From Spirochaetota bacterium (lineage in GTDB: Bacteria > Spirochaetota > Brachyspiria > Brachyspirales > JACRPF01), in contig JACRPF010000004.1 of the NCBI GenBank assembly GCA_016214035.1, positions 270,322 through 334,321 of the forward strand: DNA of 64,000 nt, written 5' to 3'. The translations under genes were made by a program, and so were the position numbers. The notes under the pieces are model-generated. The model saw only the letters and a list, made by a program, of their open reading frames with translations. It had not been told where the DNA came from and ran no database searches. Position 1 is the first letter of the stretch; each line of letters starts with the position of its first letter. Below, piece by piece: positions 1,480 to 19,750 of the stretch.

Positions 1480-3756
1480 TCAGCGGAACACTGCTTTGAT
1501 GACTTCGGGGTACGCCTCCACCGGGATGAACGTTATGCCTTTCTTGATGTATGAAGGAATCTCTTCGAGGTCCTTCTCGTTGAGCTTCGGGATGACGATA
1601 CGCCGGATGAAATTCGTCCGTTTTGCGGCGATGACCTTTTCCTTCAGCCCGCCGATGGGAAGCACTTTCCCGGTAAGCGACAGTTCACCGGTCATGGCTA
1701 TATCGTCACGCACCTTTTTACCCGTCGCCAGCGAGAACATCGCCGTTGCCATGGTGATTCCGGCGGACGGCCCGTCCTTCGGTGTCGCGCCCGCGGGAAT
1801 ATGCAGGTGCAGCATATTATCCTCGAAGAATTCCTCGCTCACTTTATAACTGGTGGCGATGCTGCGCACATAGCTATAGGCGATCTTGGCGGACTCCACC
1901 ATCACCTCGCCCATACGGCCGGTGAGATTGATATTCCCCTGTTGCTTCTTGCTCGGCGCCATGATGCACTCGATGGTCAGGGTAGACCCTCCGAGTTCAG
2001 TCCACGCGAGCCCTATGACGATGCCCGGTGCGGCAACCTTCGACGTCAGGTCGTCGTTGAATATCTCTTTCCCGAGATAGGTCTCGACATTCTTAAGATC
2101 GATGCGCACGGAAACGCCGCTGCCTTTTGTCGCCACTTCGGTAGCCACCTTGCGGCAGACCTTCTCGATATTCCGCTCGAAATTCCTGAGCCCCGCCTCT
2201 TTCGCGTAACCGGAGATGATGCGCGAAAGCGCGTTATTATCGAACGACAGATTTTTGGTCGAAAGTCCGTGACGCTCAAGCTGCCGCGGTATGATGTATT
2301 TCTCGGCAATCTTCATCTTTTCTTCGAGAATGTAACCCGACAGTCGTATCACTTCCATGCGGTCGAGCAGCGGACGCGGAATCGTGTCAATCGTGTTCGC
2401 CGTGGTGATGAAGAGGACATTCGACAGATCGAACGGCATGTCTATGTAATGGTCGCGGAACGCCACGTTCTGCTCCGGGTCGAGCACCTCGAGGAGTGCG
2501 CTTGACGGATCCCCCTGATAGCTTGAACCGAGCTTGTCGATCTCATCGAGCATGATGACGGGGTTCTTCGTCTTGACGATTTTCAGCGCCTGCATGATCT
2601 TTCCCGGCATGGCGCCGATGTAGGTGCGCCGGTGACCTTTGATCTCGGCCTCGTCGCGCATGCCGCCGAGCGAAAACCGGAAGAATTTCCGGTTAAGCGA
2701 ACCGGCTATGGATTTGCCCATTGAGGTTTTCCCGACGCCCGGAGGCCCCACGAGACAGATGATGGAACCCTTGGTCCCCGGTTTGAGCTTGCGCACGGCG
2801 AGGAATTCAAGTATCCGCTCTTTGACGTCCGTCAGTCCGTAGTGATCCTGATCGAGCAGCTTCTTCGCTTTTTTCAAATCAATCGCCTCGACGCTCTCCG
2901 TGTTCCAGGGGAGTGTGAGCACCGTGTCGAGATAACTGCGCGTGAGCGAGAACTCCGGAGAATGACTGTCGGTCATCTCGTACTTCTCAATCTCCTGCGT
3001 AATCTTTTCCTTCACTTCCTCGCCCACGGTAAGCTCGGCAAGCGCTTTCTTGAACCGCTCAAGTGTCTTCGACTTTTCATCGGTGGCGATACCGAGTTCC
3101 TTCTGTATCTCCTTAAGCTGCTCCTTGAGAAAATAATCGCGCTGCTGCTTCTGCACCGTTTCGTTGATCTTGCCCTGAATCTTGTGCTGAAGCTTGACGA
3201 TCTCCTTTTCCTTGCGGACGAGATCGAGCACGATGAGCATGCGTTCCTTCACGTCGAGCATCTCAAGCACGTCCTGCTGTTTTGCACGCTCGACGTTGAG
3301 CATGGAGGTGATGAAATCCGCCAGTTTGCCGGGCTCGTCGACGTTTACCATGGTCAGCCGCATTTCTTCGGTAAAGAGCGGATTGTCCTCGGACACTTCC
3401 TTAACCTCGGCGATAAGCGCGCGCGTGAACGCCTTCATTTCAAGCGCGTCCTCGTCGGTCTTCACGTTCGAGACTTCGGGAATATACATCGGCTCAACGC
3501 GGACGATGGGCGCCAATGACTCGAACCGAACGATGCGGTAGCGGCGTATCGAATTGATGAGTATATTGACGCCGTTATCCGGAAGATTGAGCTTCTTGAA
3601 TATCTTCGCAACGACACCGGTTTTGTAGATCATGCTTTCGGTGAGCTCGGAATCATCTCCGGTGTTCTCATCGATCAGCAGGTTCAGGCCGATGAACCCA
3701 TTATTGTTCTCGATGGCGTCGGTGATGGCGTCGATATGCCGTCCGGGACCAACCAC
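1480..3756 (-). CDS. lon: ATP-dependent Lon protease, N-terminus truncated
   Basis: Lon degrades misfolded and regulatory proteins in the cytoplasm. The AAA+ module has a Walker A motif (GPPGVGKTS) and Walker B (VIMLDEIDK). The protease domain has the catalytic Ser664 in DGPSAG and Lys707 in GGLKEK, 43 residues apart as in E. coli Lon. A long coiled-coil region precedes the ATPase. The start is abnormal: the first usable codon is the GTG at 3754-3756, but the same frame continues upstream through PFPGLYTPL, which matches the conserved N-terminal strand (FPG...PLFVG) of Lon. A stop codon at 3850-3852 then blocks the frame before any ATG. Roughly the first 30 family residues, the start codon and a ribosome site are missing, and the upstream MBL gene runs into it in another frame (see findings). 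The catalytic domains look intact. Confidence 0.93.
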
Positions 3757-4456
3757 CAGCGGCGTATAAAGACCGGGGAACGGCGATATCCAGAAGTTTT
3801 TTCGTGTCGGTGTTGCCGAAATGATACGGGTACGCTGTCTTCGGACGTATCATGCGCAGTGCGTTGAGCACCTGTTTAGGCGTCATCGTATATGGCTGAT
3901 TCATCGGCAGGAATGCGACATCGATATTCTTCAGGGCTTTCATCTCCGGAATATCCTCCGTGTCGCCGGCGATATACACGCGAAGTCCGTCAAACGTAAG
4001 CACATAGCCGTTGTCGCGTCCCTTGGGATGAAAGGTTATGGGTTTCCCGGGAAGATTATATGCGGGAACCGCCTCAATCATAATGCCCCTGATGTTCGTC
4101 ACAGCACCGTTTGACAATGCCGACCCGCCGCCGAGTTGACGCACCACCGCATCATTCGCCACGATAACAGTCCCCTGTTTCACGATATGACCGATTGCAT
4201 CCTTATCAAGGTGATCACTGTGTTCATGCGTAATGAGAATAAGATCGGCCTTCGGCATGACGGCAGAATAATCGGCATAACGGCCTACCGGATCAACATG
4301 GACAACAAGCTTCTGCCATCCGAGCATAAGCGTTCCATGACCGACGAATGTGATCGTCAGCGGACCGGATTTCGTCGAAAACGTGTCGTTCGTAAAATCG
4401 TTAGCGGCAGCGGAGAGCATGCATACCGCCGCCAGCATCATCAGAAATACCTTCAT
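3701..4456 (-). CDS. Secreted metallo-beta-lactamase-fold hydrolase (UPF0173/YtkL-like), 3' end replaced
   Basis: 251 residues beginning with a signal peptide (MKVFLMMLAAVCMLSAAA); the ATG is preceded by AGGAGGAATCT. The MBL metal motif is HEHSDHLD, followed by a second metal Asp in YIAGDTED and a late His in YPYHFGNTD, an arrangement typical of the UPF0173 family. The recognisable family sequence stops at about KKLLDI; the final 25 or so residues (from [11 protein letters not shown] to RRHREQ) are arginine-rich and are only the lon N-terminal coding sequence read in a different frame. The native C-terminal strand therefore seems lost at the junction near 3785. The substrate is unknown. It lies 48 bases downstream of glnN and probably shares its transcript. 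Confidence 0.8.
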   Translation of the reverse strand: MKVFLMMLAAVCMLSAAANDFTNDTFSTKSGPLTITFVGHGTLMLGWQKLVVHVDPVGRYADYSAVMPKADLILITHEHSDHLDKDAIGHIVKQGTVIVANDAVVRQLGGGSALSNGAVTNIRGIMIEAVPAYNLPGKPITFHPKGRDNGYVLTFDGLRVYIAGDTEDIPEMKALKNIDVAFLPMNQPYTMTPKQVLNALRMIRPKTAYPYHFGNTDTKKLLDIAVPRSLYAAGGWSRTAYRRHHRRHREQ

Positions 4457-4504
4457 AGATTCCTCCTGATATCATGTACTCGTTACACCAATATCTCACG
4501 CCGC

Positions 4505-6610
4505 TTACAGGTCAAACAGCATTTCGCTGTAGTACGGCACCGGCCACACATCCTTCGGCATGATGCATTCAAGAGCATCGACGTGCAAACGAAGTTCCGC
4601 AAGCAGCGGCATCATCGTATCGCGGAAAAACGATGCCTGCGCAACCGTGTCGCTCTGCTGCTTTGCCGTTTTGACGGCATCCTCGATCTTTTTCACCGCG
4701 GCAAATGCACCGTCGATAGAGATGCCGAGTGAAGCGAGCGTCTCACCTGCCGCAGCGGTTTTCAAGTCGTCGAGACTTGCTTTCAGTATTGAAACATACC
4801 CTATCGCCGCGGGAATGTAGAGCCGCCGCGCCATATGCACCGCTGTCTGCGCCTCGATGTTGATGTGCTTGGCGTACTGCTCGGTATATATTTCATAGCG
4901 CGAATGAAGTTCGGCCTTCGTGAGGATGCTGTATTTTTCAAAAAGTGCTTCCGATTTCGGGCTGATGAAGGCCTTCAACGCGTCAACGGCATTGCGGACA
5001 TTCGGCAGTCCCCGCTTCGTCGCCTCAGATACCCACGCCTCGGAATAATTGTTGCCGTTGAAAATGATACGCCCGTGCTTAGCCATGACGTCTTTCACAT
5101 ACGCCGCTATCTCCGTGCCGACGTCTTTTGCTTTTTCCAGACGTCCCGCAAGCGCATCAAGCGATTCCGCCACGATGGTATTGAGCACGACATTCGGACC
5201 CGCGACCGATGCTGACGAACCTACCATGCGGAACTCGAACTTATTGCCCGTGAATGCGAACGGCGACGTCCTATTGCGGTCGGAATTATCCTTGGGAAGC
5301 GGCGGCAGCGTGTCCACTCCCACGGCTACGAACACATTCCCGCCGGCGATGACCTTCTCGCCGCGCGATATTTTCGTGAAAACGTCGGTGAGTATCTCAC
5401 CGAGGAATATAGATATTATCGCCGGGGGTGCTTCATTCGCGCCGAGCCGATGATCGTTCCCCGAACTCGCCGTCGTTGCACGGAGTATATCCGCATGTGT
5501 ATCTACCGCCTGAATGACCGCCGCGCAGAACGCGAGGAACTGCTGGTTCTCATGCGGCGTCTGTCCCGGCTCGAGCAGATTGATGCCGTCGTCGGTTGAC
5601 AGCGACCAGTTATTATGCTTTCCCGAACCGTTGATGCCGGCATACGGTTTCTCATGAAGGAGGCACACGAAGTCGTGCCTGAGCGCCACTTTCTGCAGCG
5701 TTTCCATCACGAGCTGATTATGGTCGGTGGCGATGTTCGTCGTTGCGAATATCGGCGCTATTTCGAACTGTCCGGGCGCTACTTCATTGTGCTCGGTCTT
5801 CGCGCTCACGCCCATGCGCCAGAGTTCAATATCGAGTTCTTTCATGAACGCCGCAACGCGGTCCTTTATCGAACCGAAATACTGGTCTTCAAGCTCCTGC
5901 CCTTTCGGTGAAGGTGAACCGAACAGTGTCCGTCCGCACATGATGAGGTCAAGTCGTTCGCGATAATAAGACTTATCAATGAGGAAATATTCCTGTTCAG
6001 GGCCGACCGTTGAGGTAACGCTCCGTGAGGCAGTATTGCCGAGCGCCTTGATGACACGAAGCGCGTGTGTTGAAACGGCGCGCATGGAACGGAGCAGCGG
6101 CGTCTTTTTATCGAGCGCCTCTCCGTGATACGAACAGAATACCGTAGGGATGCAGAGCGTAACGCTCCCCGTCCCGTCGTTCTTGAGGAAGGCCGGCGAT
6201 GTGCAGTCCCATGCGGTGTAGCCGCGGGCCTCGAACGTGGCGCGGAGCCCGCCGCTCGGGAACGATGACGCATCCGGCTCACCCTGGATAAGCTGTTTGC
6301 CGGAAAATTCCATGATGACGCCGCCGTCATCCGTGGGCGATATAAATGCATCGTGCTTTTCCGCCGTCATGTTGGTGAGCGGCTGAAACCAGTGCGTATA
6401 GTGCGTGGCGCCGTGCTCTATGGCCCAGTCTTTCATCGCGTTGGCGACGACATTTGCGGTTGCCGCTTTGAGCGGCGCACCGGATTCTATCGTTTCCTTC
6501 AGCGACCGGTACGTCTCTTTCGGGAGGCGTTCCTTCATCAGTTTTTCACTGAAAACATTCGAGCCGAATAATTCCGTGATGTCGTGCATGTTTGAAAAGA
6601 CGTGTTCCAT
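4505..6610 (-). CDS. glnN: Type III glutamine synthetase
   Basis: 701 residues, the usual size of GSIII. It makes glutamine from glutamate, ammonia and ATP in the cytoplasm. The GSIII-type start [15 protein letters not shown] is followed by the catalytic barrel motifs: [26 protein letters not shown], and the ATP/glutamate region [10 protein letters not shown]. The start at 6608-6610 was chosen because AGGAG lies seven bases upstream and because the alignment begins there; the open frame further upstream adds 64 residues without family similarity. A good sigma-70 promoter (6666-6694) gives a leader of about 50 bases. GSIII is known from Bacteroidetes, spirochaetes, cyanobacteria and some Firmicutes. 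No other nitrogen-assimilation gene is adjacent. Confidence 0.95.
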
Positions 6611-8357: not shown

Positions 8358-8631
8358 ACAACTCTCCATGCGGATAATATCGCCGCTATGCATTTCGCGC
8401 CTTGAACAACACGAATGAATACGACGTAAACTACATATATGTTGAACAGTTCTTCTCTACTTTCGTGATGTTCTGTTTCACAAAGGGCAGTATCTCTTGC
8501 ACTGACAGCCGCCTGTCCAGCCGCAGTGTCACGTTGTCCATATCCCGCGGTAATTTCGTCCATTGTCCGTACTCATCATGACTGTTACTATATGCCGCAT
8601 TGGTATACAATGTCCGCTCAGGAGTATGACG

Positions 8632-9636
8632 ATGCAAACATCCACCGACTGGTTCCGTGACGCAAAATGGGGAGTCTTCTTCCATTACCTTGCCTCCCCC
8701 GCTTCGAGTACCGACGCGCCGGGCATGACTGTTGACGAATGGAACCGCCGCATCGACGGATTTGACGTTGACGCGCTTGCAGAGCAGCTTGCGGAAATCA
8801 AGGCTGGTTATTTTTTCATCACACTTGGGCAGAACTCGGGATTCTATCTTTCACCAAACGCGGCCTATGACCGCATCGTCGACCGGAAACCAAGCCGGTT
8901 GTCACGGCGTGACCTCGTAGCCGATCTTGCGGCGGCGCTTAACAAACACAATATCCGCCTCATGGTATATTTCACCGCACTCGGCCCAGCAATGGATGTT
9001 GAAGCGCTTGAAAAACTCAAATGCACGCCGCCGTGGAAGCCGCACTGCGCGCTCGCATCATCGAATTACCGCATACAGCCCGGTGTCGATGCCCGGCTTA
9101 CCGCGTTTCAAAAAAACTGGGAAGCGATAATCACCGAATGGTCAACACGCTGGGGCAACAACGTTCACGGCTGGTGGATAGACGGCGGATATTACGCGGA
9201 TCAACTCTACCGTTTTCCCGACGCGCCGAACTTCGGCAGTTTTGCCGCCGCGATGAAAGCGGGAAATCCTGATTCGCTTGTGTGCTTCAATCCCGGCGTC
9301 AAGGTACCGGTAATAAAACACGCAGACAATGAGGATTACACCGCGGGCGAGGTGGCGAACTCGCTGCCGGTATCGGTGGATAACGGCAAACCGGCGGCAT
9401 GGGCGCCCACGCTGTCGCGTTTCATCAACGGCGCGCAGTATCATCTGCTCACGTTCCTCGGCTATTATTGGGGCCGCGGCACACTGCGTTTCACCGAGGA
9501 TATGCTCATCGCATACACGAAATATGTCAATTCGTTCGAGGGCGTAATCACCTGGGATGTACCGCCCACGGAAAAGGGGCTCATCGATCCGGCATTCATG
9601 AAGACGCTCTCGGCGCTCGGAAAAGCGACACGGTGA
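8632..9636 (+). CDS. GH29-like alpha-L-fucosidase
   Basis: 334 residues without a signal peptide. The N-terminus TDWFRDAKWGVFFHYL matches the GH29 start in which the WGVF-H segment contacts fucose. The segment HGWWIDGGYY carries the Asp of the W-x-D-G-G motif that serves as nucleophile in GH29. Family members release terminal alpha-L-fucose with retention. The protein is shorter than classical GH29 enzymes (about 450 residues) and lacks their C-terminal beta-sandwich, so its specificity may differ. The start at 8632 was chosen because GGAG sits seven bases upstream; an ATG at 8626 lies too close to it. A long hairpin terminator follows at 9735. Confidence 0.75.
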   Translation: MQTSTDWFRDAKWGVFFHYLASPASSTDAPGMTVDEWNRRIDGFDVDALAEQLAEIKAGYFFITLGQNSGFYLSPNAAYDRIVDRKPSRLSRRDLVADLAAALNKHNIRLMVYFTALGPAMDVEALEKLKCTPPWKPHCALASSNYRIQPGVDARLTAFQKNWEAIITEWSTRWGNNVHGWWIDGGYYADQLYRFPDAPNFGSFAAAMKAGNPDSLVCFNPGVKVPVIKHADNEDYTAGEVANSLPVSVDNGKPAAWAPTLSRFINGAQYHLLTFLGYYWGRGTLRFTEDMLIAYTKYVNSFEGVITWDVPPTEKGLIDPAFMKTLSALGKATR

Positions 9637-9734
9637 CCCGCCCCTCCTGCTTCCCACACGCAGCATACAGATAACACACGCCTGTATACCGCCCCGAAAC
9701 ACGACCGCATGACAGGTCCGATCATCTCCCATCG

Positions 9735-9797
9735 CCCCGCATATCCGTCTGCTTCGGTGCACAGAAGCAGTAAGGATGTGCGGGGCTCTTTTTTTTT
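9735..9797 (+). terminator. Long Rho-independent terminator after the GH29-like gene
   Basis: An outer stem pairs CCCCGCATATCC with GGATGTGCGGGG (one wobble). An inner stem pairs CTGCTTC with GAAGCAG around an eight-base loop. A T-rich tract ending in nine Ts follows directly. Confidence 0.88.
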
Positions 9798-10267
9798 GTT
9801 GCATGATCCACATTCACACAATCAATCCCACAGCCCCACACAACCGGGGAATCGGTTCGGGCGGGCGGTCGGGGAATTCGTTCGGCGCTCGATCAAGAAA
9901 GCCGTCTGCTCGGACCGGGGCTGCTGAAGAATGGGATCGTGCAGGTGGCGAACGGGGTGCAGCAAGCTTCATCGGACATGCATCGCCGGACACATTGTCC
10001 TGTCAAGGCATGGTGTAAATTGTCAGAATCAGGATAGTCAGGATGAACGGGATAGACGGGATGTCTTTTCCCCTTAATCCTGCTCATCCTTTTATCCTGG
10101 ATATCCCGCTGTTTAGACTTTTCCCATGCATGTGCCGGTAAATGGATAATATGTCGCGTGCAGCAATTGCACGTCATTTGAATGAAAATGTATTTAACGC
10201 AGTGGTAATGTTACATTAAACTGTTTGCAATAATACGCGACGTAAAAGCAAAATACTTCTATCCTTT
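9798..10267. other. Intergenic stretch without a convincing gene
   Basis: Between the GH29 terminator and the convergent esterase gene. Apart from the GGAT-type inverted repeat at 10029-10111 it holds no promoter, RNA or coding signal that I can support. The short open frames lack ribosome sites and recognisable products. Confidence 0.6.
10029..10111. repeat. Nonamer repeats forming a long imperfect hairpin
   Basis: The left arm contains four units of nine bases of the form (A/G)GGATNNNN: AGGATAGTC, AGGATGAAC, GGGATAGAC, GGGATGTCT. The right arm contains the complementary pattern ATCCTNNNN/ATCCCNNNN with the same spacing. The arms (10029-10065 and 10076-10111) can pair over about 35 bases with mismatches around a C-rich loop. 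From memory, similar GGAT-periodic intergenic repeats occur in unrelated environmental bacteria; their role is unknown. Confidence 0.7.
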
Positions 10268-11386
10268 TCACTTCGCCGCACGCTTCTTGCTGAACAGCCA
10301 TTCCCACACGTCTGCGGTCTTGTCACATTTGTCTGATGCATACTTCGTCACCCGCCCCGGGCTATCACCTGTGTAACTAAGCGCCGCGTGCACCACACTG
10401 TGCCCCATGTTCGCCACTTCTGTGAATTTCAAATTATGCCCGAGTTGTTTCATCCACTCAAAGGTGGTATTCCCCAGTTGGACCTGTATTTCCTTGTCTT
10501 TGCCCCCCTGGAAGGCCCACATCGGCAAGTCCTTGATCGGGGCGACGTCGGCCCACGGCCCGATCCAGCCGGCCGAGGCGATCGCGGCGGCGAAACGGTT
10601 CGGTTGCTCGACCACCGCCGTCCACGTGCCGAACCCGCCCATCGAGTGACCCTGAACGTAAACGCGATCCGTGTCGATCGGAAACTCCTTCGCCAGCGCA
10701 TCGAGCAGCAGGAACACACGGTCGAGGTTGGCAAGTTCTGGATTCTCCAGGCGTTTACTTTCTTTACCCCCTAAGAAATCTTGCCAGACCTTGGGTAGCT
10801 TCGCGCGCACCTCCTTCGTTAAATTCGTCGTCGTGCCCGGTGTCTGCCACATGCCGGGCGACTGCGGCACCACCACGAAGCATGGATGCTTGCGACGCCA
10901 CGCTTCCTCCCCATAGATCGTGCCCCATTCTCTCACGTTCTTCACGTTGTCGTCTCCGACTCCAGCCGCACCATGCAGCGAGAGAAGCATCGGATATTTC
11001 TTGTCAGGATTATTTGGTAGATCGATCGGCCTAAGCAGGCGGTATTTCACACCCTTGAACTCGCGGGCCTCAAACAGAGCGAGCACTGCAGCGTCATCTG
11101 TTCCATTACCTTCGCCGTCCGATGTTGCGGCTGGTACGTTCGTAGGAGTCTGCGCAGCATCTTTCCCGCCCTTCGTTCCTTTTGTTTTCATTGTTGAACG
11201 ATATGCTTCAGCTTCTTTCATGGTGAGGATGCCGTCACCGTCAGCATCTGCGTCGGGGTGCTGTTCAAATGCTTTTTTAAGCTTATCGTTGTTTTGGGAT
11301 GTCTGCAGAGCGGCATCCTGCGGGAAAAGCATCGTTGCGGCGGCAATGCCGATGATGACAATGCGCGCGGGAAAATTGTTCTTCAT
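10268..11386 (-). CDS. Secreted EF-hand plus alpha/beta-hydrolase esterase
   Basis: 372 residues. A signal-type N-terminus (RIVIIGIAAATMLFPQDAAL) is followed by a calcium-binding EF-hand loop (DADADGDGILTMKEAEAY, near residues 44-62), a lysine-rich linker, and an alpha/beta-hydrolase domain of the PHB-depolymerase/feruloyl-esterase type. The oxyanion segment is LSLHGAAGVGD, the nucleophile Ser is in GHSMGG and the catalytic His is probably in GHSVVH. It likely removes ester decorations from polysaccharides outside the cytoplasm. It is the last gene of a four-gene minus-strand cluster starting at 15602. Its first 85 or so residues are nearly the same, in DNA as well as protein, as those of the esterase at 14514-15602, whose catalytic domain is unrelated. 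Confidence 0.82.
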   Translation of the reverse strand: MKNNFPARIVIIGIAAATMLFPQDAALQTSQNNDKLKKAFEQHPDADADGDGILTMKEAEAYRSTMKTKGTKGGKDAAQTPTNVPAATSDGEGNGTDDAAVLALFEAREFKGVKYRLLRPIDLPNNPDKKYPMLLSLHGAAGVGDDNVKNVREWGTIYGEEAWRRKHPCFVVVPQSPGMWQTPGTTTNLTKEVRAKLPKVWQDFLGGKESKRLENPELANLDRVFLLLDALAKEFPIDTDRVYVQGHSMGGFGTWTAVVEQPNRFAAAIASAGWIGPWADVAPIKDLPMWAFQGGKDKEIQVQLGNTTFEWMKQLGHNLKFTEVANMGHSVVHAALSYTGDSPGRVTKYASDKCDKTADVWEWLFSKKRAAK

Positions 11387-11391
11387 TACGG
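11153..11391 (-). repeat. Copy 1 of a duplicated leader/EF-hand coding segment
   Basis: This segment matches 15367-15607 almost base for base, with runs of 19 or more identical bases separated by single substitutions. It covers the region just before the ATG, the signal peptide, the EF-hand and the KTKG-KGG linker. Confidence 0.88.
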
Positions 11392-11439
11392 GGCTCCTCG
11401 ATGTATTTTCTGAGTAAGAGGTTTGGTTTTCATAGGGTG

Positions 11440-13524
11440 TTATTTGGTTCGACTCTTCGTTTTTTTGCCGGACTTCACCGTTACTTTCTCCGGAACTTGA
11501 TTTGTAATGGCTTCCCGGGGTGCCTCGGCCTTCTCAAGCACGGCCTTAATTGCATCCTTATCCGCAGGCAGCAGTGAGCAAGAATAGAAAGGCATATGGT
11601 AGTACGAAGGTGAAACGGGCAACTCCAACAGGGGTTTCGTCCGGGTCTTTCCGCCGTTACCTTCCCCGTCGTGCTGTTCCCATAAAAGCGTGCTCAGCGG
11701 AACGTCTCTCTTCTTAAAAACACCGCAGGATGCCACACTTATGTTTCCCCCGTAGCTCTTGATCATTCCGCCGCTGGGGCGATCCCCGGAATGATCTCCA
11801 CCCCCAGTATCCATGAAGCAGCTGAAAATCTCCAGGTGGGAGCCCATGTGAGCCGCAAGCCAGGTTTCCGGATGTATTTCGCCGCTGTTGATGCCGAACA
11901 ACCAAACGTCGGAGTTATAGGCGTGCAACTGATCGGATACTCCGGTCATATTGAGTCCCCGGCTCCAGACCTTCTGGTTTCTGAAAATAAGCTGCGGACC
12001 GGGTTCCAATGCCTTGTTGTTTCCTACGGGATTGAAGCTCTCCAGGAAGAGATCCCCCGGCTTCTCCGCAGCGGTTTCATAGCATGTGCGGAACGGATGC
12101 CTTAGCCTGAGCTCCCGGAGAACGACGGTCTTGCTCGATTGGTTTCGAATGCCGCCATTCACATTCTTGAACGTGTCGATCGATACCATGGGCCAGCCCC
12201 CGGTTTCGATGATGAACGCATACCTCGGATCGTCATCGGCATCAAACGAGACTTCCATCTTGGAGCCGTAAATTCTCCGTACTCCGCCCCGCACGTATAT
12301 GCTCTTGTCCAACTTCACGATTCCCGTGTTGTTTCGCGAGCGATCCACACCACTGAGAATCACGATCTCCTTTCCCGATTTGTCGATGGCATTCTGGATG
12401 GCATCCGAATCGTAGACCTGCTTTTCACAGTCGACGATAACGGACTTGGACAAGTCCCATGCCAAATCGGGGGTTTCCTTGATCGGCAGATTAAGTGTCC
12501 TGTCGGGGGCACGGTCCGACAGCTTGACCCCGTCGCCAGTGTGCCATTCATCGATATAGGTGCCTCCCGCAGGCGTTCCGTTGTCGGCGACGACGGATTT
12601 AAAGCCTTTAGCCGATACGTTGCGGACGAACAAGTGGCCCGACGTATGCCTGAAATCAATGCCGCAGGAGCCGCCGGCTCTGTCGTAGCTGAAGGCGCTG
12701 TCGATGATGGCCAGATTGGTTTCATCTTCGTTGTCCACGGGCTTATCGACATTGAAGGTCTGCAGGTCCCGGATACCGATGCAGCGTTTCTGGCAATAGA
12801 TGCCGATGTGGGCATTCCGCACGATGATATGCTCAAGCAGGATGTTGCTTTTTGCAGAGCGAATGGACAGATCAAAACCGGTGGAAAAACCTACCACTTC
12901 GACATTTTTCACGAAGTGCGTTCCCCCGTAATTGCGATTGAACGCAAACCCCAGGTATCCGTTGCCGTCGGCGGATTTAAGCAGGAGATTTTCCGAGACC
13001 CCGACATTGTTCGCATGCTGGTCCAGCGCGATGACTCCGGGGTTGTTCGACCCGGTATTGATCGTCAGATCGATCACGCTTTGATGCTGAAATGTAGCGC
13101 CTCCGGGTTGGGGGGTGGCCAACACTACCGCTTTGGGATTGTTGCGATCACCGAAGCCGCTTGCTTTGTCGGCAAGTCGTATCACCGTGCCGGTCATGGA
13201 CTCTCCCTGAAAGGTCATCCATTCGTTATCGGCACCCGTAGCGCAGAGCTGGATGGTATCCGACACCCGGTAGGTGCCGTTCGGAAGGTAGACCAGCGGT
13301 GCTTTAACGACGCGGGCGGCATTGACCGCGGCTTGAATGGCGGCAGTGTCGTCGGTTGTGCCATCGCCCTTTGCGCCGTAATCCCGGACGTTGAAAACAT
13401 TCGGGATGTTCGGCAGGGGAAAGGCATGAACAATGCCTGCGGGCAAGACAAGAATATTCATGATTGCCCACATGGCGATCCAGACGCTGCGTGGTAAGGC
13501 GCCCCTTTTGAAATGGCACTTCAC
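11440..13524 (-). CDS. Secreted pectate-lyase-3 type right-handed beta-helix protein
   Basis: 694 residues. The start is GTG, overlapping the upstream stop as GTGA, which implies translational coupling. A hydrophobic export segment (WIAMWAIMNILVLPAGIVHA) is followed by FNVRDYGAKGDGTTDDTAAIQ, the hallmark N-terminus of the pectate_lyase_3/GH28-like beta-helix family. Long stretches of short strands with Asn and Ser follow, and the C-terminus is Lys-rich. Relatives include pectate lyases, polygalacturonases and phage tail-spike enzymes; which chemistry applies cannot be decided from sequence. Its position between two esterases suggests attack on an esterified uronic-acid-containing polymer. Confidence 0.82.
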   Translation of the reverse strand: MKCHFKRGALPRSVWIAMWAIMNILVLPAGIVHAFPLPNIPNVFNVRDYGAKGDGTTDDTAAIQAAVNAARVVKAPLVYLPNGTYRVSDTIQLCATGADNEWMTFQGESMTGTVIRLADKASGFGDRNNPKAVVLATPQPGGATFQHQSVIDLTINTGSNNPGVIALDQHANNVGVSENLLLKSADGNGYLGFAFNRNYGGTHFVKNVEVVGFSTGFDLSIRSAKSNILLEHIIVRNAHIGIYCQKRCIGIRDLQTFNVDKPVDNEDETNLAIIDSAFSYDRAGGSCGIDFRHTSGHLFVRNVSAKGFKSVVADNGTPAGGTYIDEWHTGDGVKLSDRAPDRTLNLPIKETPDLAWDLSKSVIVDCEKQVYDSDAIQNAIDKSGKEIVILSGVDRSRNNTGIVKLDKSIYVRGGVRRIYGSKMEVSFDADDDPRYAFIIETGGWPMVSIDTFKNVNGGIRNQSSKTVVLRELRLRHPFRTCYETAAEKPGDLFLESFNPVGNNKALEPGPQLIFRNQKVWSRGLNMTGVSDQLHAYNSDVWLFGINSGEIHPETWLAAHMGSHLEIFSCFMDTGGGDHSGDRPSGGMIKSYGGNISVASCGVFKKRDVPLSTLLWEQHDGEGNGGKTRTKPLLELPVSPSYYHMPFYSCSLLPADKDAIKAVLEKAEAPREAITNQVPEKVTVKSGKKTKSRTK

Positions 13525-14402
13525 TTTTTGATCCAGCCAAGCTCAACCAGGAAAGCATCCGCCTCGGCGAGGGTCTTGGAATAGTATTCGCCGCCATTGA
13601 AGAAGCCATGGCCTGCGCCCTCGTACGGAACCAGCTTGCACGGTCGGCCGGCTCGCTTCATCTCGCTCTCGAATGCGACAACAGAATCGTAGGGGACTGT
13701 TTTATCAGCCGTGCCATGAAGGATGAGTGTCGGCGGCGTGTGGGGACCGATGTGATGGGCCGGCGAGATTGTCTCTGCCTCAACGCCGAATCGATTGCTG
13801 CTGAGCGCGGCACTGTCTGCTTTCACTGGTGAGGGTGACCAGCCCGCAATGGGAGCGAGCGTGCAGGCGGGGTTAAAGAGGATCATGGCGTTGGGACGTT
13901 CGTCGCTGTCGAAGCCGCTAATCGTGCCGGTGGCAGCGGCGAGATGGCCCCCTGCAGAGCCTCCAGATGCGGCAATTTTTTTCGGATCAATTCCGAGTCG
14001 TTGGGCATTTCCCCTGACCCAGGCGATGGCCGCCTTGGCATCCTTCACGCATTCCATCACCTGCACATTATTCCGGGACTTCACGCGATAATCGGCGGCG
14101 ATGGCGATCATGCCTCGTTTGGCGAAATGACGCGCTTGATCTTCGAATGCGGCAGGTGAGCCCTTATTCCAACCACCGCCGAAAAAGAACACGATCGCGG
14201 GTTTCGGCACCTTGGGATCTGACTCTCCGAAGATCCAAAGGTTCAAATTGATGGAGCCGATCGTTCGGTATGTCTCGACGCGAGTGTTACTCAATTGGGG
14301 TGGATAGCCTTTGTCCTCGGCTTCATCAGACGCGTTGCGGGCGTTCCGGGCAAACGCCATCGCCGCACTGATCGTGATGATTACACATAGAGTTTTCCTC
14401 AT
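13521..14402 (-). CDS. Secreted alpha/beta-hydrolase esterase (BD-FAE/acetylxylan-esterase-like)
   Basis: 293 residues. The ATG at 14400-14402 has GAGGA six bases upstream and starts a signal peptide (MRKTLCVIITISAAMAFA). The hydrolase domain has the oxyanion segment VFFFGGGWNKG, in which the family's usual His of HGGG is Phe. The nucleophile Ser is in GGSAGGHLA, the acidic residue in LILHGTADKTVPY, and the His in GAGHGFF. Relatives deacetylate xylan or cleave feruloyl esters. It is the second gene of the minus-strand cluster and overlaps the next gene by four bases. Confidence 0.85.
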   Translation of the reverse strand: MRKTLCVIITISAAMAFARNARNASDEAEDKGYPPQLSNTRVETYRTIGSINLNLWIFGESDPKVPKPAIVFFFGGGWNKGSPAAFEDQARHFAKRGMIAIAADYRVKSRNNVQVMECVKDAKAAIAWVRGNAQRLGIDPKKIAASGGSAGGHLAAATGTISGFDSDERPNAMILFNPACTLAPIAGWSPSPVKADSAALSSNRFGVEAETISPAHHIGPHTPPTLILHGTADKTVPYDSVVAFESEMKRAGRPCKLVPYEGAGHGFFNGGEYYSKTLAEADAFLVELGWIKK

Positions 14403-14513
14403 AGGATTTTCCTCATGGTTCAATTTTTTTTACAGAATCTTTCACCGATTCGCTGCCCGACGCGCACCCACTGTCTTTTTCTCCCTCGAAGGCTGCCCAT
14501 TCGGATCGCGACC

Positions 14514-15602
14514 CTACCGTTTCATGCCGAAGGAACGCAGGATGAAGTCAAACGCGGCATTTTTGGGCGCAGGTTTTGAACTGTAGTAGAAATGACATTC
14601 AATTCCGAGTGCGTCATATTCCTTCTTGAACAGCTCACCGAATTTCGGATGATGAATAAACCCCCCCGGGCCCGTGCCTTCGGGAAGCGGCGTCGCGCTC
14701 AGATCGTTCTTTTCATAATCAAAGAAGATCGGCGGGTCATCCTTGCTCACGAAGTTGATTGCCGATGCCTCATGCCCAAGCTTTTTTACTTTATCAGAAG
14801 TAAGTTCTGCCTCTGACGCGACTCCGAAAAACGCGAGCGTCGAGGGAAAAAGCGTGGTGCCGTTATAAATATGTTTCCGAACCATTTCAAGATCGTTGAA
14901 GGTCTGTGCTTTATAAGCGAGAACAAACGAAAGACGCGTGGATTCCCGCGCCACGGGATCTTTCGCGTTCGGGTCTGCAAAATCATCATGCGTTGCAAGC
15001 CAGACAGAGAGATTCGCGCCCGCGGAACTGCCGGTGGCTCCAATTCGTTTGGGGTCGATGTTCCACGCTTCTGCCTTTGATCGCAGGTACTGCACCACGC
15101 GCGCGCCATCGAGCATCGGTGCGGGGAAAGGATCGGTTGTCACGTAACGGTAACTCATCGTTGCGACAGATATGCCTGCATCAAGGCACTGTTTGACCAG
15201 CGGGTCATTGTAGTAAATCGACTTGTCGCCGCCGACAAATCCATGGCCGTGTATGCAGAGGAGCACCGGGGCGGGGGTTGACGATTTTGCTTTCCAGAAA
15301 TCGAAGACTTGCCGCTCGTGAGTTCCGTATTTCACATTTGCTGCGGTGAGCGGGATCGCAGGAGTCTGAGCAGCATTTTTTCCGCCCTTCGCTCCTTTTG
15401 TTTTCATTGTTGAACGAAATGCTTCAGCTTCTTTCATGGTGAGTATGCCGTCGCCGTCAACATCTGCGTCGGGGTACTGTTCGAATGCTTTTTTGAGCTT
15501 ATCGTTGTTTTGGGATGTCTGTAGAGCGGCATCCTGCGGGAGAAGCATCGCTGCGGCGGCAATGCCGATTATGACGCTGCATACAAAAAATTTGGTTTTC
15601 AT
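14514..15602 (-). CDS. Secreted EF-hand plus alpha/beta-hydrolase (HSL-like) esterase
   Basis: 362 residues. The start has AAGGAG seven bases upstream. Residues 1-85 are the same export signal, EF-hand (PDADVDGDGILTMKEAEAF) and KTKG linker as in the gene at 10268-11386. The catalytic domain is a different alpha/beta-hydrolase: oxyanion HGHGFVGGDK and nucleophile Ser in GATGSSAGANLS, near a BD-FAE or hormone-sensitive-lipase-like family. A catalytic His is not obvious near the C-terminus (CHFYYSSKPAPKNAAF). It is the first gene of the cluster, behind a promoter at 15752-15780, and divergent from the GntR/LacI-type regulator, which probably controls it. Confidence 0.8.
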   Translation of the reverse strand: MKTKFFVCSVIIGIAAAAMLLPQDAALQTSQNNDKLKKAFEQYPDADVDGDGILTMKEAEAFRSTMKTKGAKGGKNAAQTPAIPLTAANVKYGTHERQVFDFWKAKSSTPAPVLLCIHGHGFVGGDKSIYYNDPLVKQCLDAGISVATMSYRYVTTDPFPAPMLDGARVVQYLRSKAEAWNIDPKRIGATGSSAGANLSVWLATHDDFADPNAKDPVARESTRLSFVLAYKAQTFNDLEMVRKHIYNGTTLFPSTLAFFGVASEAELTSDKVKKLGHEASAINFVSKDDPPIFFDYEKNDLSATPLPEGTGPGGFIHHPKFGELFKKEYDALGIECHFYYSSKPAPKNAAFDFILRSFGMKR

Positions 15603-15607
15603 TACGG
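15367..15607 (-). repeat. Copy 2 of the duplicated leader/EF-hand coding segment
   Basis: Partner of 11153-11391. The similarity ends abruptly after the KGGKNAAQTP codons, where the catalytic domains begin. Confidence 0.88.
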
Positions 15608-15751
15608 GACTCCTTGTGTTGCAATGTTTTTAGGAAAAGTTAATTCGGGTCTCAGTTTGGTTGATGTATTTGCAGAAGGATAATGGGTTTCATTTGAAAT
15701 CTTTAAAACGGTATTTTTTAGGTACATTATAAACCGTCCTATGATGCTTAT

Positions 15752-15780
15752 AATATAATCAATAACAAACATAACGTCAA
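15752..15780 (-). promoter_or_regulatory. Sigma-70 promoter of the esterase/pectate-lyase cluster
   Basis: On the minus strand: -35 TTGACG (15775-15780), 17-base spacer, -10 TATATT (15752-15757). The predicted leader is about 140 bases. A perfect palindrome TGAACTGTTCA lies just upstream at 15789-15799. Confidence 0.6.
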
Positions 15781-15788
15781 GTAATAAG

Positions 15789-15799
15789 TGAACTGTTCA
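15789..15799. promoter_or_regulatory. Candidate operator palindrome
   Basis: TGAAC-T-GTTCA is a perfect inverted repeat nine bases upstream of the -35 box of the esterase cluster. It could bind the regulator encoded at 16091. This is inference from position and symmetry only. Confidence 0.35.
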
Positions 15800-16049
15800 G
15801 TGAAAATACCGGTGATGCGGGAGTCCTAAGTTCGGCATTATGTGTACCGATTTGGACTGCGGTGATAAAGTATATTTTGGCGTTTTCCTTAAAAAAAAGC
15901 TTCAGAAATTGCTCATATGCCTGTGGGCTGATGGAATCACAGCTGCTTATCAACTGATATTGACGATATAAACGGGATCGGTATCATGCGGCCATGGCGA
16001 TGATCTACGATAGTATCGACGAAAAAAAAAAACTCTTATCCATTTTTAC

Positions 16050-16078
16050 TTGACTTTTCAAGATATACCGGTTATATT
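16050..16078 (+). promoter_or_regulatory. Sigma-70 promoter giving a very short leader
   Basis: -35 TTGACT (16050-16055), 17-base spacer, -10 TATATT (16073-16078). The ATG is 12 bases after the -10 box, so the predicted leader is about five bases. The -35 box is covered by the dyad CTTGA-CTTT-TCAAG. Confidence 0.65.
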
Positions 16079-16090
16079 AATCATCATAGG

Positions 16091-17194
16091 ATGCATAAAA
16101 AAAAATCAACCGAATCAGATTTGCCGACGTATATCCGGATTTCAAATGAAATCCGTGAGAAATACATCCGCCATGCGTCTGCAGAGGAGATGCTTCCTTC
16201 CATAGTGGCGCTCGCAGAAGAGTTCTCGGTGAGCAAGGCCACTGCTGAACGTGCGGTTAAACTTCTTGCAAATGCCGGCGATCTCTATTCTCTCAATGGC
16301 AGCGGGACATATGTGCGGATGAAGCAGCAGGCGGTCGATGGAACCGCACTTTCACGAATTTGTGTCCTTGCGCCAATCAATTTTCATGACCCAGCAAACT
16401 GGTATTCGAATGCACTTTTCCGCGGCATCTCTGAGCGCGCCATGTCGCTTGGAATATCAATGCAGATCGTCGCAGGAAAAAAGAAAGCAGTCATGCAGGA
16501 GATAGCATCCGGAGGAATGCTTCAGTCTGAGTCGTGCGGATTCATCGTGCTTATTTCGGTGAAGGAGAATGCCGATCCGCTTATTGATACGCTCAATGAG
16601 TTTCAGCGACGTATTGTTCTTGTTGAAAGCACCGCGTATAAATCGAAGGTACTCACTGCGTCTGTAGATAACCGTACAGGGATCATTAATGCATGTAAAC
16701 ATCTCAAGTCGCTCTCGCGGACAAAAACAATTTTCATCGGTTCGTCAGCGGAATCAGGCGGGTTAATGCAGCGGAAAAATGCATTCATCGAAGCGTTCAG
16801 GAACACCGGCATAACCGCTCAAGACGAACGGATTATCCTTTCTGGGGTGAATGATTTCAGCCCGGATATCCGGCGCGGATATTTATTGATGGACGGATAC
16901 AGTAAAGCGCGTGGATTTTCTTTTGACAGCATCATCGCTGCTAATGACGGATTTGCTGCAGGGTGCATTCTCTCACTGAAAGAACGCGGTGTAAAGATTC
17001 CAGAGGACGTCGCTGTTATCGGGTTTGATGATCAGACGCGGCTTACCGAAGGGTTTGTACCAAGCATCACCTCGGTTCGCTTTGATGCGGTTGAACTTGG
17101 CCGCAAAGCGGTACGAACACTGGTTACCGGAATAGAGGAGAATATGATTCCAACTGAATTAATCTGCCGTGAGAGCGCGCCAAAGATAATTTGA
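16091..17194 (+). CDS. GntR-type HTH fused to LacI-type sugar-binding regulator
   Basis: 367 residues. Residues 15-80 form a GntR winged helix (LPSIVALAEEFSVSKATAERAVKLL) with the wing segment LNGSGTYVR. Residues 90-367 are a periplasmic-binding-protein-like ligand domain of LacI type (Peripla_BP_3), including SIIAANDGFAAGCILSLKERGVKIPEDVAVIGFDD and SITSVRFDAVELGRKA. Such AraR-like hybrids are usually repressors released by a sugar. It is divergent from the esterase/pectate-lyase cluster at 10268-15602 and probably controls it. The ATG lies only 12 bases from the -10 box and has no clear ribosome site. The dyad over its own -35 suggests autoregulation. Confidence 0.9.
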   Translation: MHKKKSTESDLPTYIRISNEIREKYIRHASAEEMLPSIVALAEEFSVSKATAERAVKLLANAGDLYSLNGSGTYVRMKQQAVDGTALSRICVLAPINFHDPANWYSNALFRGISERAMSLGISMQIVAGKKKAVMQEIASGGMLQSESCGFIVLISVKENADPLIDTLNEFQRRIVLVESTAYKSKVLTASVDNRTGIINACKHLKSLSRTKTIFIGSSAESGGLMQRKNAFIEAFRNTGITAQDERIILSGVNDFSPDIRRGYLLMDGYSKARGFSFDSIIAANDGFAAGCILSLKERGVKIPEDVAVIGFDDQTRLTEGFVPSITSVRFDAVELGRKAVRTLVTGIEENMIPTELICRESAPKII

Positions 17195-17689
17195 AATCGG
17201 TAAGAGATAGCGAATGAAACGAAAGACGATTATGTGCCGGTAAGGTGTGATATACAGCAATCATCACCGACGCAACGCACCTGACACTCAGATACTTTTC
17301 TATATAATGAGCGCACGAAGTGAGGGGAAAAATGTCTTTTGAGAAAGATATTTTTTGCCAACGCAGCATGCGAATGATCCTCTCCGGCCAACCGGTCGCA
17401 CACCGGCGTTCGAGCGATAGAGTGCAACAACCAGAATATACTCTACCATTATCCACATTACACCTCGCGTGAGGGCGAAGGGAAGAAATGTCTTTCTGAG
17501 CACCGTGCCTGCTATGTAGAAAGCAATAATCTATGTCATCAGGAATAATCCCGGTCCTGCATCAGAGCGGCACGATGCCGCGAATGCGACGAATCTGTCC
17601 AAGGAAGGACAGCTGAGTCGCGCATGGTGCGAAGAAAGACATTTCTTCTCGAGCTACTAACGCGTGCCTCCGGCCCGCTCGGCCCATCA
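17195..17689. repeat. Gene-free region with two copies of a repeat-plus-hairpin unit
   Basis: No gene is supported in these 495 bases. The segment AAAAATGTCTTTTGAG near 17328 recurs as AGAAATGTCTTTCTGAG near 17485, and again inverted near 17632-17650. Each direct copy is followed by a five-base-arm, five-base-loop hairpin: CCGGT-CGCAC-ACCGG at 17391-17405 followed by CGAGCGATAG, and GCGGC-ACGAT-GCCGC near 17554-17568 followed by GAATGCGAC. These resemble the hairpins at 30161 and 51307. The region may be a small tandem of structured repeats. Hairpin coordinates were counted by eye. Confidence 0.5.
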
Positions 17690-19750
17690 TCACTGCCTCC
17701 GCTTGAGATAGAGCGCCACGATGCTCTTTTCCGGCACGGTATACGCGGAGAAATCCGCCATTACCGGAGCATCATCCTTCACCATAATGCGTTTTTCATT
17801 CTCATCATTATAAGAATGCACCGACGGCGCGGTGAGCGTTACACTTCGGATCAAATCATAGCGCCCCTTGAATGAAAATACTGCGTCACGTTTTGTGATC
17901 TTTTCCCGGTTAACGATGATCAGATTAATCCCGTCCTTTGAGTCAGTCGCTGTAACGGTGCATGAGACATCATCCTTCGCCGGATCCGTCCAGTCGCCGG
18001 TAACCGTCGACGAAAGAACATTCGCTCCCATGGCGTCGTTGTACAGTCTGAACATATCGACAATACCGGTTGTATAAAGCGCTTTTGTTTGTTTGCCGCG
18101 ATAGACAAGTCCCCATGGACCGGCATTGAAGCAGTGATACGTCGCCAAGCCGATATCATCGCGTGCATAGAGCCGGTTGATGAACTGCGCGGTGGCGAGA
18201 CAGCCCATGAGCGCATGAGTCGTATACCATGTTTTCTCCCAGCGCTCACCCTGTTTCTGCGCCGGCCAGAGCCCGTGTTCTGAGATGTACAGTTTGATGC
18301 GGTCGCTGCCGGTGATGTTCTTTACATCGTCGCGGATCACATCGAAATAGGTCTCGATGACGCTCGTCGGATAACCATAGTAGTACGGATGAAATGCGAG
18401 ATATGAGATATCGTTCCCCAACTCGCGCAGCAGTGTGCGGTGCCAGTCGCGCCAGTCTTCGCCCTTGAAGCGGCTGTAACCCCACGGCGCGGTGGCGGCA
18501 TGCGGCGCGAATGTCGCTTTCGGATACACACTCCTGACGGCGGCTATCATTTTACGGCAGCGGTCAACGTAATCGCTGATGCTCATGCGGTTCGAACCGC
18601 TCACCCATTCCTCTTCATTGCCGAGCTCAAAGGTGACGATATCAACCGGCTGTTTCGCGCCGCCGTCGATGCGCAGTTTCGCCCAGTTCGTCGCACCGCG
18701 CGGAGATGAACCGTCTCCGGTGAGGAACTCCGCGAGATCGGCGGCATCTTCCGGTGTGTCATTACGCATATTCAGCGTCCAGATGAAGCGCGCAGGCGCA
18801 TATCCGCCTCGTACGGCACCAATAAGTTCCGCCGGACCGCATGCGGCTGTCAACGGCTTATCCCACGCGGTAAACTTTGCCGCTGTCCGCGACTCCATCG
18901 GTCCGACCGCATATTTCCACCGGAACGATTGCGGGTCCGCGCTCCCGACATACATGATGATGCGGTTGAGCGGTGCGGGTATCGTAGCGAGAACGTTCCG
19001 CATCTCGGCGGAAATCTCGGTTCGCTGTTCGTTCATGAAATATCCGTCGATAGGAAATGCACCGAGCACGAATCCGAGACAGCGCTTTCCGCCGGCTCTG
19101 AGTACTATTGATTCATCAATGGAAACCGTCACCGGCAGCCGCGCAGGTTTTGAGCCGTCATCAACATCATTCGTGATGATGATATTGTCATATTCGGTGC
19201 CCGCTCCCGCTTTCACCTCGGTCTTCGGCGCTTCCGGTGTAAATGCCTCAAAGCTCAGATTTCGTATCGCTATTTTCTTTCCGGCATTCTCTTTCATACC
19301 AACTCCGATGATGATGCGAAGCGTTGTATCATCCAGCACCGTATACCGGGCGCTTATATTTTTTTCAGCTGCACCGACGGTCTCCCATATATCAGGACCG
19401 ATGGTGTCTTTCGCAGGCGGTGTTGCCGCAATACGCGGACCGATGAACAGTTTCGCGCCGGCGTCACCGCCTATCGTCACCGTAATCCGGTACGAACCTT
19501 TTGCGACCGGCGTTTTCACCAAGGTAAAGCCGGTATCGTTGAACGCTCTCCCCGCGGACTGCACACTAATCTCAATGCCGCCGTCAATTCCGGTAACCGT
19601 CATCCTGTCGCCGCCGACGGTATCCCATCCGCGGATCTTTCCGTCCGCACCTGACGCAAAAATGCCATAATCGATGACCGACACGGCAGCGGATGACATT
19701 GCCGCCGTCATGAGCAATACCAGTGCAGTGAAAAAAAAGTTGCCGCGCAT
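17690..19750 (-). CDS. Secreted clan GH-A-like glycoside hydrolase (GH51-like), copy A
   Basis: 686 residues. A signal peptide (FFFTALVLLMTAAMSSAA) is followed by a beta-sandwich-like region (residues 25-175) and a TIM barrel. The likely acid/base Glu379 is in FELGNEEEW, and the likely nucleophile Glu491 is in LYISEHGLW. A beta-rich C-terminal domain ends the protein, as in alpha-L-arabinofuranosidases of GH51. The exact family and sugar cannot be fixed by eye. It is the last gene of the operon 25143-17690. The barrel shares wording with the next gene (RELGND/RELGDQ, DLAEFL, ELGNE), so the two are paralogues. Confidence 0.75.
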   Translation of the reverse strand: MRGNFFFTALVLLMTAAMSSAAVSVIDYGIFASGADGKIRGWDTVGGDRMTVTGIDGGIEISVQSAGRAFNDTGFTLVKTPVAKGSYRITVTIGGDAGAKLFIGPRIAATPPAKDTIGPDIWETVGAAEKNISARYTVLDDTTLRIIIGVGMKENAGKKIAIRNLSFEAFTPEAPKTEVKAGAGTEYDNIIITNDVDDGSKPARLPVTVSIDESIVLRAGGKRCLGFVLGAFPIDGYFMNEQRTEISAEMRNVLATIPAPLNRIIMYVGSADPQSFRWKYAVGPMESRTAAKFTAWDKPLTAACGPAELIGAVRGGYAPARFIWTLNMRNDTPEDAADLAEFLTGDGSSPRGATNWAKLRIDGGAKQPVDIVTFELGNEEEWVSGSNRMSISDYVDRCRKMIAAVRSVYPKATFAPHAATAPWGYSRFKGEDWRDWHRTLLRELGNDISYLAFHPYYYGYPTSVIETYFDVIRDDVKNITGSDRIKLYISEHGLWPAQKQGERWEKTWYTTHALMGCLATAQFINRLYARDDIGLATYHCFNAGPWGLVYRGKQTKALYTTGIVDMFRLYNDAMGANVLSSTVTGDWTDPAKDDVSCTVTATDSKDGINLIIVNREKITKRDAVFSFKGRYDLIRSVTLTAPSVHSYNDENEKRIMVKDDAPVMADFSAYTVPEKSIVALYLKRRQ

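Follow-up and report, generated by a model that had tools for sequence, protein, structure and literature searches.

Two genes for unrelated hydrolases in the 64,000-nucleotide stretch of DNA analysed here (the window) begin with nearly the same export signal and EF-hand, and the question this locus raises is how a common front end came to stand before two different enzymes. Gene A (10268-11386, minus strand, 372 amino acids) joins this leader to an alpha/beta-hydrolase, and gene B (14514-15602, minus strand, 362 amino acids) joins it to a BD-FAE-type esterase. The first-pass annotation treated the two as neighbours, but the order on the minus strand is B, C, D, A, with two further genes separating them. 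Gene C (13521-14423, minus strand, likely start ATG at 14402) encodes a BD-FAE-type esterase that lacks the leader, whereas gene D (11440-13524, minus strand), which overlaps gene C by 4 bp, is pectate-lyase-like (Pect-lyase_RHGA_epim; PF12708, 81.4 bits). The four genes are likely to form a single operon, and a divergent gene for a GntR/LacI-type regulator (16091-17194, plus strand; PF00392 and PF13377) lies upstream of gene B. Judged by their similarities, the genes found nearby, including an alpha-L-fucosidase-like gene, one for a GH10-like protein and two weakly similar to the arabinofuranosidase ArfA, appear in keeping with the use of plant polysaccharide. A 54-column near-palindrome (9734-9786, 85% identity) located 3' of the fucosidase-like gene is perhaps a terminator.

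When the sequence was compared with itself by BLAST, genes A and B were found to share one ungapped segment of 259 bp that is 89.2% identical (E 5e-96), spanning 11140-11398 in gene A and 15356-15614 in gene B, both on the minus strand. This match is the only long direct repeat between 9500 and 16500, and a profile search (E<=1e-4) recovers no leader copies in the source genome other than these two. The match begins at the ribosome-binding site (AGGAGyCCCGTA), 12 bp 5' of the ATG, and extends as far as codon 82; neither self-BLAST nor alignment detects similarity farther upstream than -12 or downstream of codon 82. Thus, the duplicated export and EF-hand module proposed in the first-pass annotation takes the form of one bounded repeat, although it stops at codon 82 rather than near codon 85, and it is not preserved almost base for base, because 27 of the 246 coding bases differ. 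These differences produce silent changes in nine codons and residue changes in 14. The resulting values (dN 0.083, dS 0.26, dN/dS about 0.31) suggest that both copies have some age and are still under constraint.

The differences are distributed unevenly. Identity is 67% over codons 1-12 and 93% over codons 13-82 (Fisher p 6e-5 for the contrast), with 12 of 36 bases differing in the first 12 codons (11351-11386 and 15567-15602) compared to 15 of 210 in the rest of the leader. This excess divergence may reflect either relaxed constraint or a mosaic origin. Over a core of 43 residues the leaders of A and B are 93% identical, while 14 other leaders are at most 57% identical to that of A. A second, much shorter likeness lies outside the repeat. 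The 12 bases that open gene B, ATGAAAACCAAA, are found exactly once more in the window, at 11422-11433 (minus strand), which places this copy 36-47 nt ahead of gene A's ATG; shuffled sequence gives an expectation of 0.00. The copy near gene A lies just 5' of that gene's ribosome-binding site and opens a frame of 15 codons that ends in TAATG at the start of gene A. It may be left over from an older start or from an earlier copying step.

Behind its ribosome-binding site, the leader has three parts: a helix resembling a signal peptide, a single EF-hand loop of canonical type and a flexible linker (KTKG). The loops occupy residues 47-58 in both proteins (DADGDGILTMKE in A, 11213-11248; DVDGDGILTMKE in B, 15429-15464; both minus strand), and each matches the 12-residue EF-hand pattern of acidic ligands at positions 1, 3 and 5 and glutamate at position 12. 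The side chains predicted to contact calcium (Asp47, Asp49, Asp51, Thr55 and Glu58) are identical in the two copies. An AlphaFold model of gene B (mean pLDDT 90.4) places a helix at residues 3-19, the EF-hand within residues 34-71, a poorly predicted linker at residues 70-75 and a well predicted hydrolase thereafter. Helices 34-42 and 56-71 flank the loop to give a helix-loop-helix (pLDDT 90-94 over residues 31-60), an assignment that rests on the gene B model, with a single-sequence model of A (pLDDT 33) left out. The Pfam EF-hand score of leader A is 11.9 bits, below the curated cut-off of 25.4; all 16 leaders examined match EF-hand_1 at E<=1 (best 0.0011). Calcium binding by the leader is a prediction.

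The enzymes that follow are unrelated in sequence, with no significant likeness detected between the two hydrolase domains by BLASTP (best E 0.083), just as the first-pass annotation had maintained. The domain of gene A (10268-11139, minus strand) is assigned by Pfam, alignment and tree to the Esterase/Abhydrolase_2/Peptidase_S9 clan, for which its scores of 29.5, 29.4 and 38.1 bits all exceed the respective cut-offs of 22, 23 and 22.6, and its Ser, Asp and His residues line up with those of its relatives. A more specific assignment as an extracellular PHA depolymerase (NF050058) was rejected, given a score of 47 against a curated cut-off of 150. The domain of gene B (14514-15355, minus strand) is carbohydrate-esterase-like and scores 91.5 bits against PF20434 (BD-FAE; cut-off 26.8), with Abhydrolase_3 also above its cut-off. 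Of a candidate Ser-Asp-His triad, its Ser193 is invariant and its His317 nearly so across 22 aligned rows. At Z 28.7, with 256 residues aligned at 3.0 A and 21% identity, the carbohydrate esterase 6tkx is the structure nearest to the gene B model, and we presume that 6tkx and 6xyc, assigned to a gut carbohydrate esterase, are the structures of the paper on BD-FAE. Gene B thus shares both the Pfam family and the fold of BD-FAE, and gene C is linked to it by Pfam. As described in that paper, BD-FAE is a feruloyl/acetyl xylan esterase whose N-terminal tail packs as a beta-strand on a neighbouring molecule in crystals (PMC8165983). Gene B resembles this enzyme by profile and predicted structure, but differs from it in having an EF-hand leader.

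If one of the two genes obtained its leader from the other, then the distribution of leaders among relatives should indicate which. We searched for leaders with a profile built from 16 leader cores (E<=1e-4). Only one of 296 genomes in the organism's own phylum has a match, namely the source genome with its two copies, compared to 13 of 149 sampled genomes of Planctomycetota and 10 of 145 of Verrucomicrobiota (the name that we take, after GTDB usage, for the phylum of the Lentisphaerae representative L055). This supports the link to Planctomycetes and Verrucomicrobia that the first-pass annotation drew. Most precede BD-FAE-type esterases (22 distinct B-type ORFs), and several of these proteins (L053, L055, L147, L134, L227 and others from the same two phyla) have the same order of parts as gene B, from signal segment through EF-hand and linker to BD-FAE-type domain. 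Their single EF-hand has the motif P-x-A-D-x-x-x-D-G-x-L-T-x-x-E-A. However, their hydrolases are only about 34-49% identical to that of B, and none was found to have an unrelated neighbour that holds a near-copy of the leader.

The same leader is also attached to other proteins. It precedes one A-type hydrolase (L187), one S15-type enzyme (L150) and a family of about 350-450 residues recognized by eye in eight ORFs (L132, L141, L142, L144, L151, L224, L231 and L243). The three members tested (L132, L142 and L151) gave no Pfam match. In this family the leader is followed by a GHS motif, and an H-P or H-containing motif stands close to the C-terminus; its members are perhaps SGNH-like hydrolases. 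Some sulfatases (L152 by Pfam; L153, L236, L238 and L247 by eye) end in a similar EF-hand, of the KHPEADTNKD type, as a C-terminal tail. Elsewhere in the source genome (C1:19209-20063), another esterase, L027, carries two EF-hands before a BD-FAE-type domain and has a counterpart, L006, in the same-family genome G147; this is a separate fusion of EF-hand and esterase. Literature searches on EF-hands in Planctomycetes or Verrucomicrobia with esterases or sulfatases returned no account of this module, as judged at the level of search results.

For gene B, a scan of genome contigs with a 58-residue piece of the protein as query gave 116 loci, of which 80 were kept, mostly from Planctomycetota, Verrucomicrobia or Lentisphaerae groups. 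Among the 86 B-like ORFs in these kept loci, an EF-hand precedes the domain in two, and these are also the closest to B (L053, 46% identical; L055, 49%). In a tree from searches that included the leader (after removal of copies, of short rows and of rows scoring below 140 bits), 22 of 25 rows in B's half carry it, a figure that is biased because leader-bearing rows were gathered with the leader. A control search of 91 + 89 genomes, in which the query had no leader, weakens it to nine of 33 relatives scoring 100 bits or more, with rows below this dropped from the tree, and to four of five rows, B included, in the smallest starred clade that holds B (96/88). The 34-row tree of the B family requires five changes in leader state, and so the leader appears to be labile within this family; moreover, L257, a close relative at about 50% identity, is without one. 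For these reasons leader ancestry in the B family is only probable.

For gene A, in a tree of 59 rows, from which matches under 95 BLAST bits and near-identical copies were dropped, 57 of the 58 rows other than A are leaderless, including its five nearest. The starred clade of A (100/100) has six rows, and the five besides A, all from Planctomycetota or Verrucomicrobiota, lack the leader. These searches used the full-length A protein, leader included, which favours leader-bearing matches, and thus the leaderless state of A's relatives is meaningful. The one exception, L187 (genome G350, same phylum as L053), bears a leader of this family on an A-type hydrolase only 30% identical to that of A, and is probably an independent fusion because it lies in a distant, different starred clade. 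We found no near-identical homologue of A in the state expected before copying, the nearest relatives being 45% identical, and the A-type hydrolases from a plasmid collection were all distant, each aligning over less than 80% of the query. Because leaders occur on B's nearest relatives but not on A's, the simplest reading is that copy B was the likely donor and copy A the likely recipient.

Taken together, these observations make it probable, in our judgment, that the unrelated hydrolase gene A acquired, at its start, a duplicate of a 259-bp cassette from the 5' end of gene B, which lies in the same likely operon. The repeat, its limits, the architecture and the distribution of leaders are directly established. 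We consider it unlikely that A and B each already had an EF-hand leader and that gene conversion later made the two alike. The uneven identity along the leader would fit a conversion tract, and L187, as an A-type enzyme with a leader, shows that an older leader of A's own may be conceivable, but the leaderless rows of A's clade and of the wider A family speak against it. Copying in the direction from A to B is highly improbable; the likeness of two copies alone gives no direction, yet it is B, not A, whose nearest relatives in two other phyla bear the leader.

The first-pass annotation favoured a related scenario, in which the hydrolase domain was replaced after duplication. Duplication of all of gene B and subsequent exchange of the domain in one copy would leave the same-looking end product, but no trace remains at gene A of the B hydrolase or of DNA from upstream of B, as the match goes no further than -12 on one side and codon 82 on the other, and the A-family tree gives the A domain a separate past without the leader. 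Consequently we rate this scenario as improbable. It had been thought that finding both full-length architectures to be old would count against the proposal. That of B is indeed old, given its relatives in two phyla, but that of A looks derived, and capture of the 5' end of B by gene A accounts better for this combination. Finally, although genome contamination is estimated at 4.65%, an assembly artefact or contaminating sequence is scarcely credible, since the window lies in a contig of 368 kb, the genes around the cluster have 70-79% matches in a same-family genome, and the two leader copies differ at 27 coding positions.

The cluster itself likely has a lateral origin and a Planctomycetes/Verrucomicrobia character, which the first-pass annotation had raised as a possibility. 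G147, the only same-family genome compared, matches the window at 70-79% over 1517-6570 (in pieces), 8620-9566 and 17802-19557, but has no DNA match at 9567-17801, the interval containing genes A to D and the regulator. Furthermore, the closest relatives of A (45% identical) and B (46-50%) are all in Planctomycetota or Verrucomicrobiota, with the best own-phylum relatives at only 34% (L031) and 37% (L005), respectively, and two Verrucomicrobia records, L060 and L077, have C-type genes (39-40% identical to gene C) next to genes of B type. It is this absence of a match between matching flanks, together with the placement of the nearest relatives of A, B and C, that makes transfer likely. The compositional evidence is mixed. 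GC content is ordinary, and codon bias is clearly raised only for D (z 6.4), C (5.4) and the regulator (6.7), compared to 2.6 and 2.2 for the A and B domains and 0.0 and 1.4 for the leaders; z for the remaining genes tested in the window lies between -0.7 and 6.6. We do not take composition as a principal argument for transfer.

If gene A did capture the start of gene B, then a gene located beyond two others downstream in the likely operon would have received a ribosome-binding site, a signal-peptide-like segment, one EF-hand and a flexible linker. The signal segment would direct export of both proteins, and the EF-hand, a small domain set apart by a flexible tether, would bind calcium outside the cytoplasm. 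The catalytic domains might then deacylate plant polysaccharide alongside the pectate-lyase-like partner. Single EF-hands tend to pair, and a more speculative idea, which we consider improbable, is that this one serves as a pairing tag through which A and B form a calcium-dependent heterodimer outside the cell, with the same tag on other enzymes and on sulfatase tails acting as a general, as yet unnamed, dockerin-like assembly element. Dockerin domains carry an EF-hand-like calcium loop on extracellular polysaccharide enzymes, and the loop is duplicated. The leader was not classified as a dockerin, as each copy has one loop motif where two repeats are required.

As an instance of module shuffling among bacterial proteins the locus is clear, though fairly ordinary, and its novelty is limited. 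Its value is as a bounded example, with both ends of the 259-bp segment visible, of how a bacterial gene for a secreted enzyme may obtain, in a single step and from another gene of its likely operon, a translation start together with an export signal and an accessory motif. The small EF-hand module recurs on unrelated enzymes in Planctomycetota and Verrucomicrobiota, and is thus a candidate calcium-dependent stabiliser or pairing element. Should the pairing idea prove true, one operon would encode a complex with two activities.
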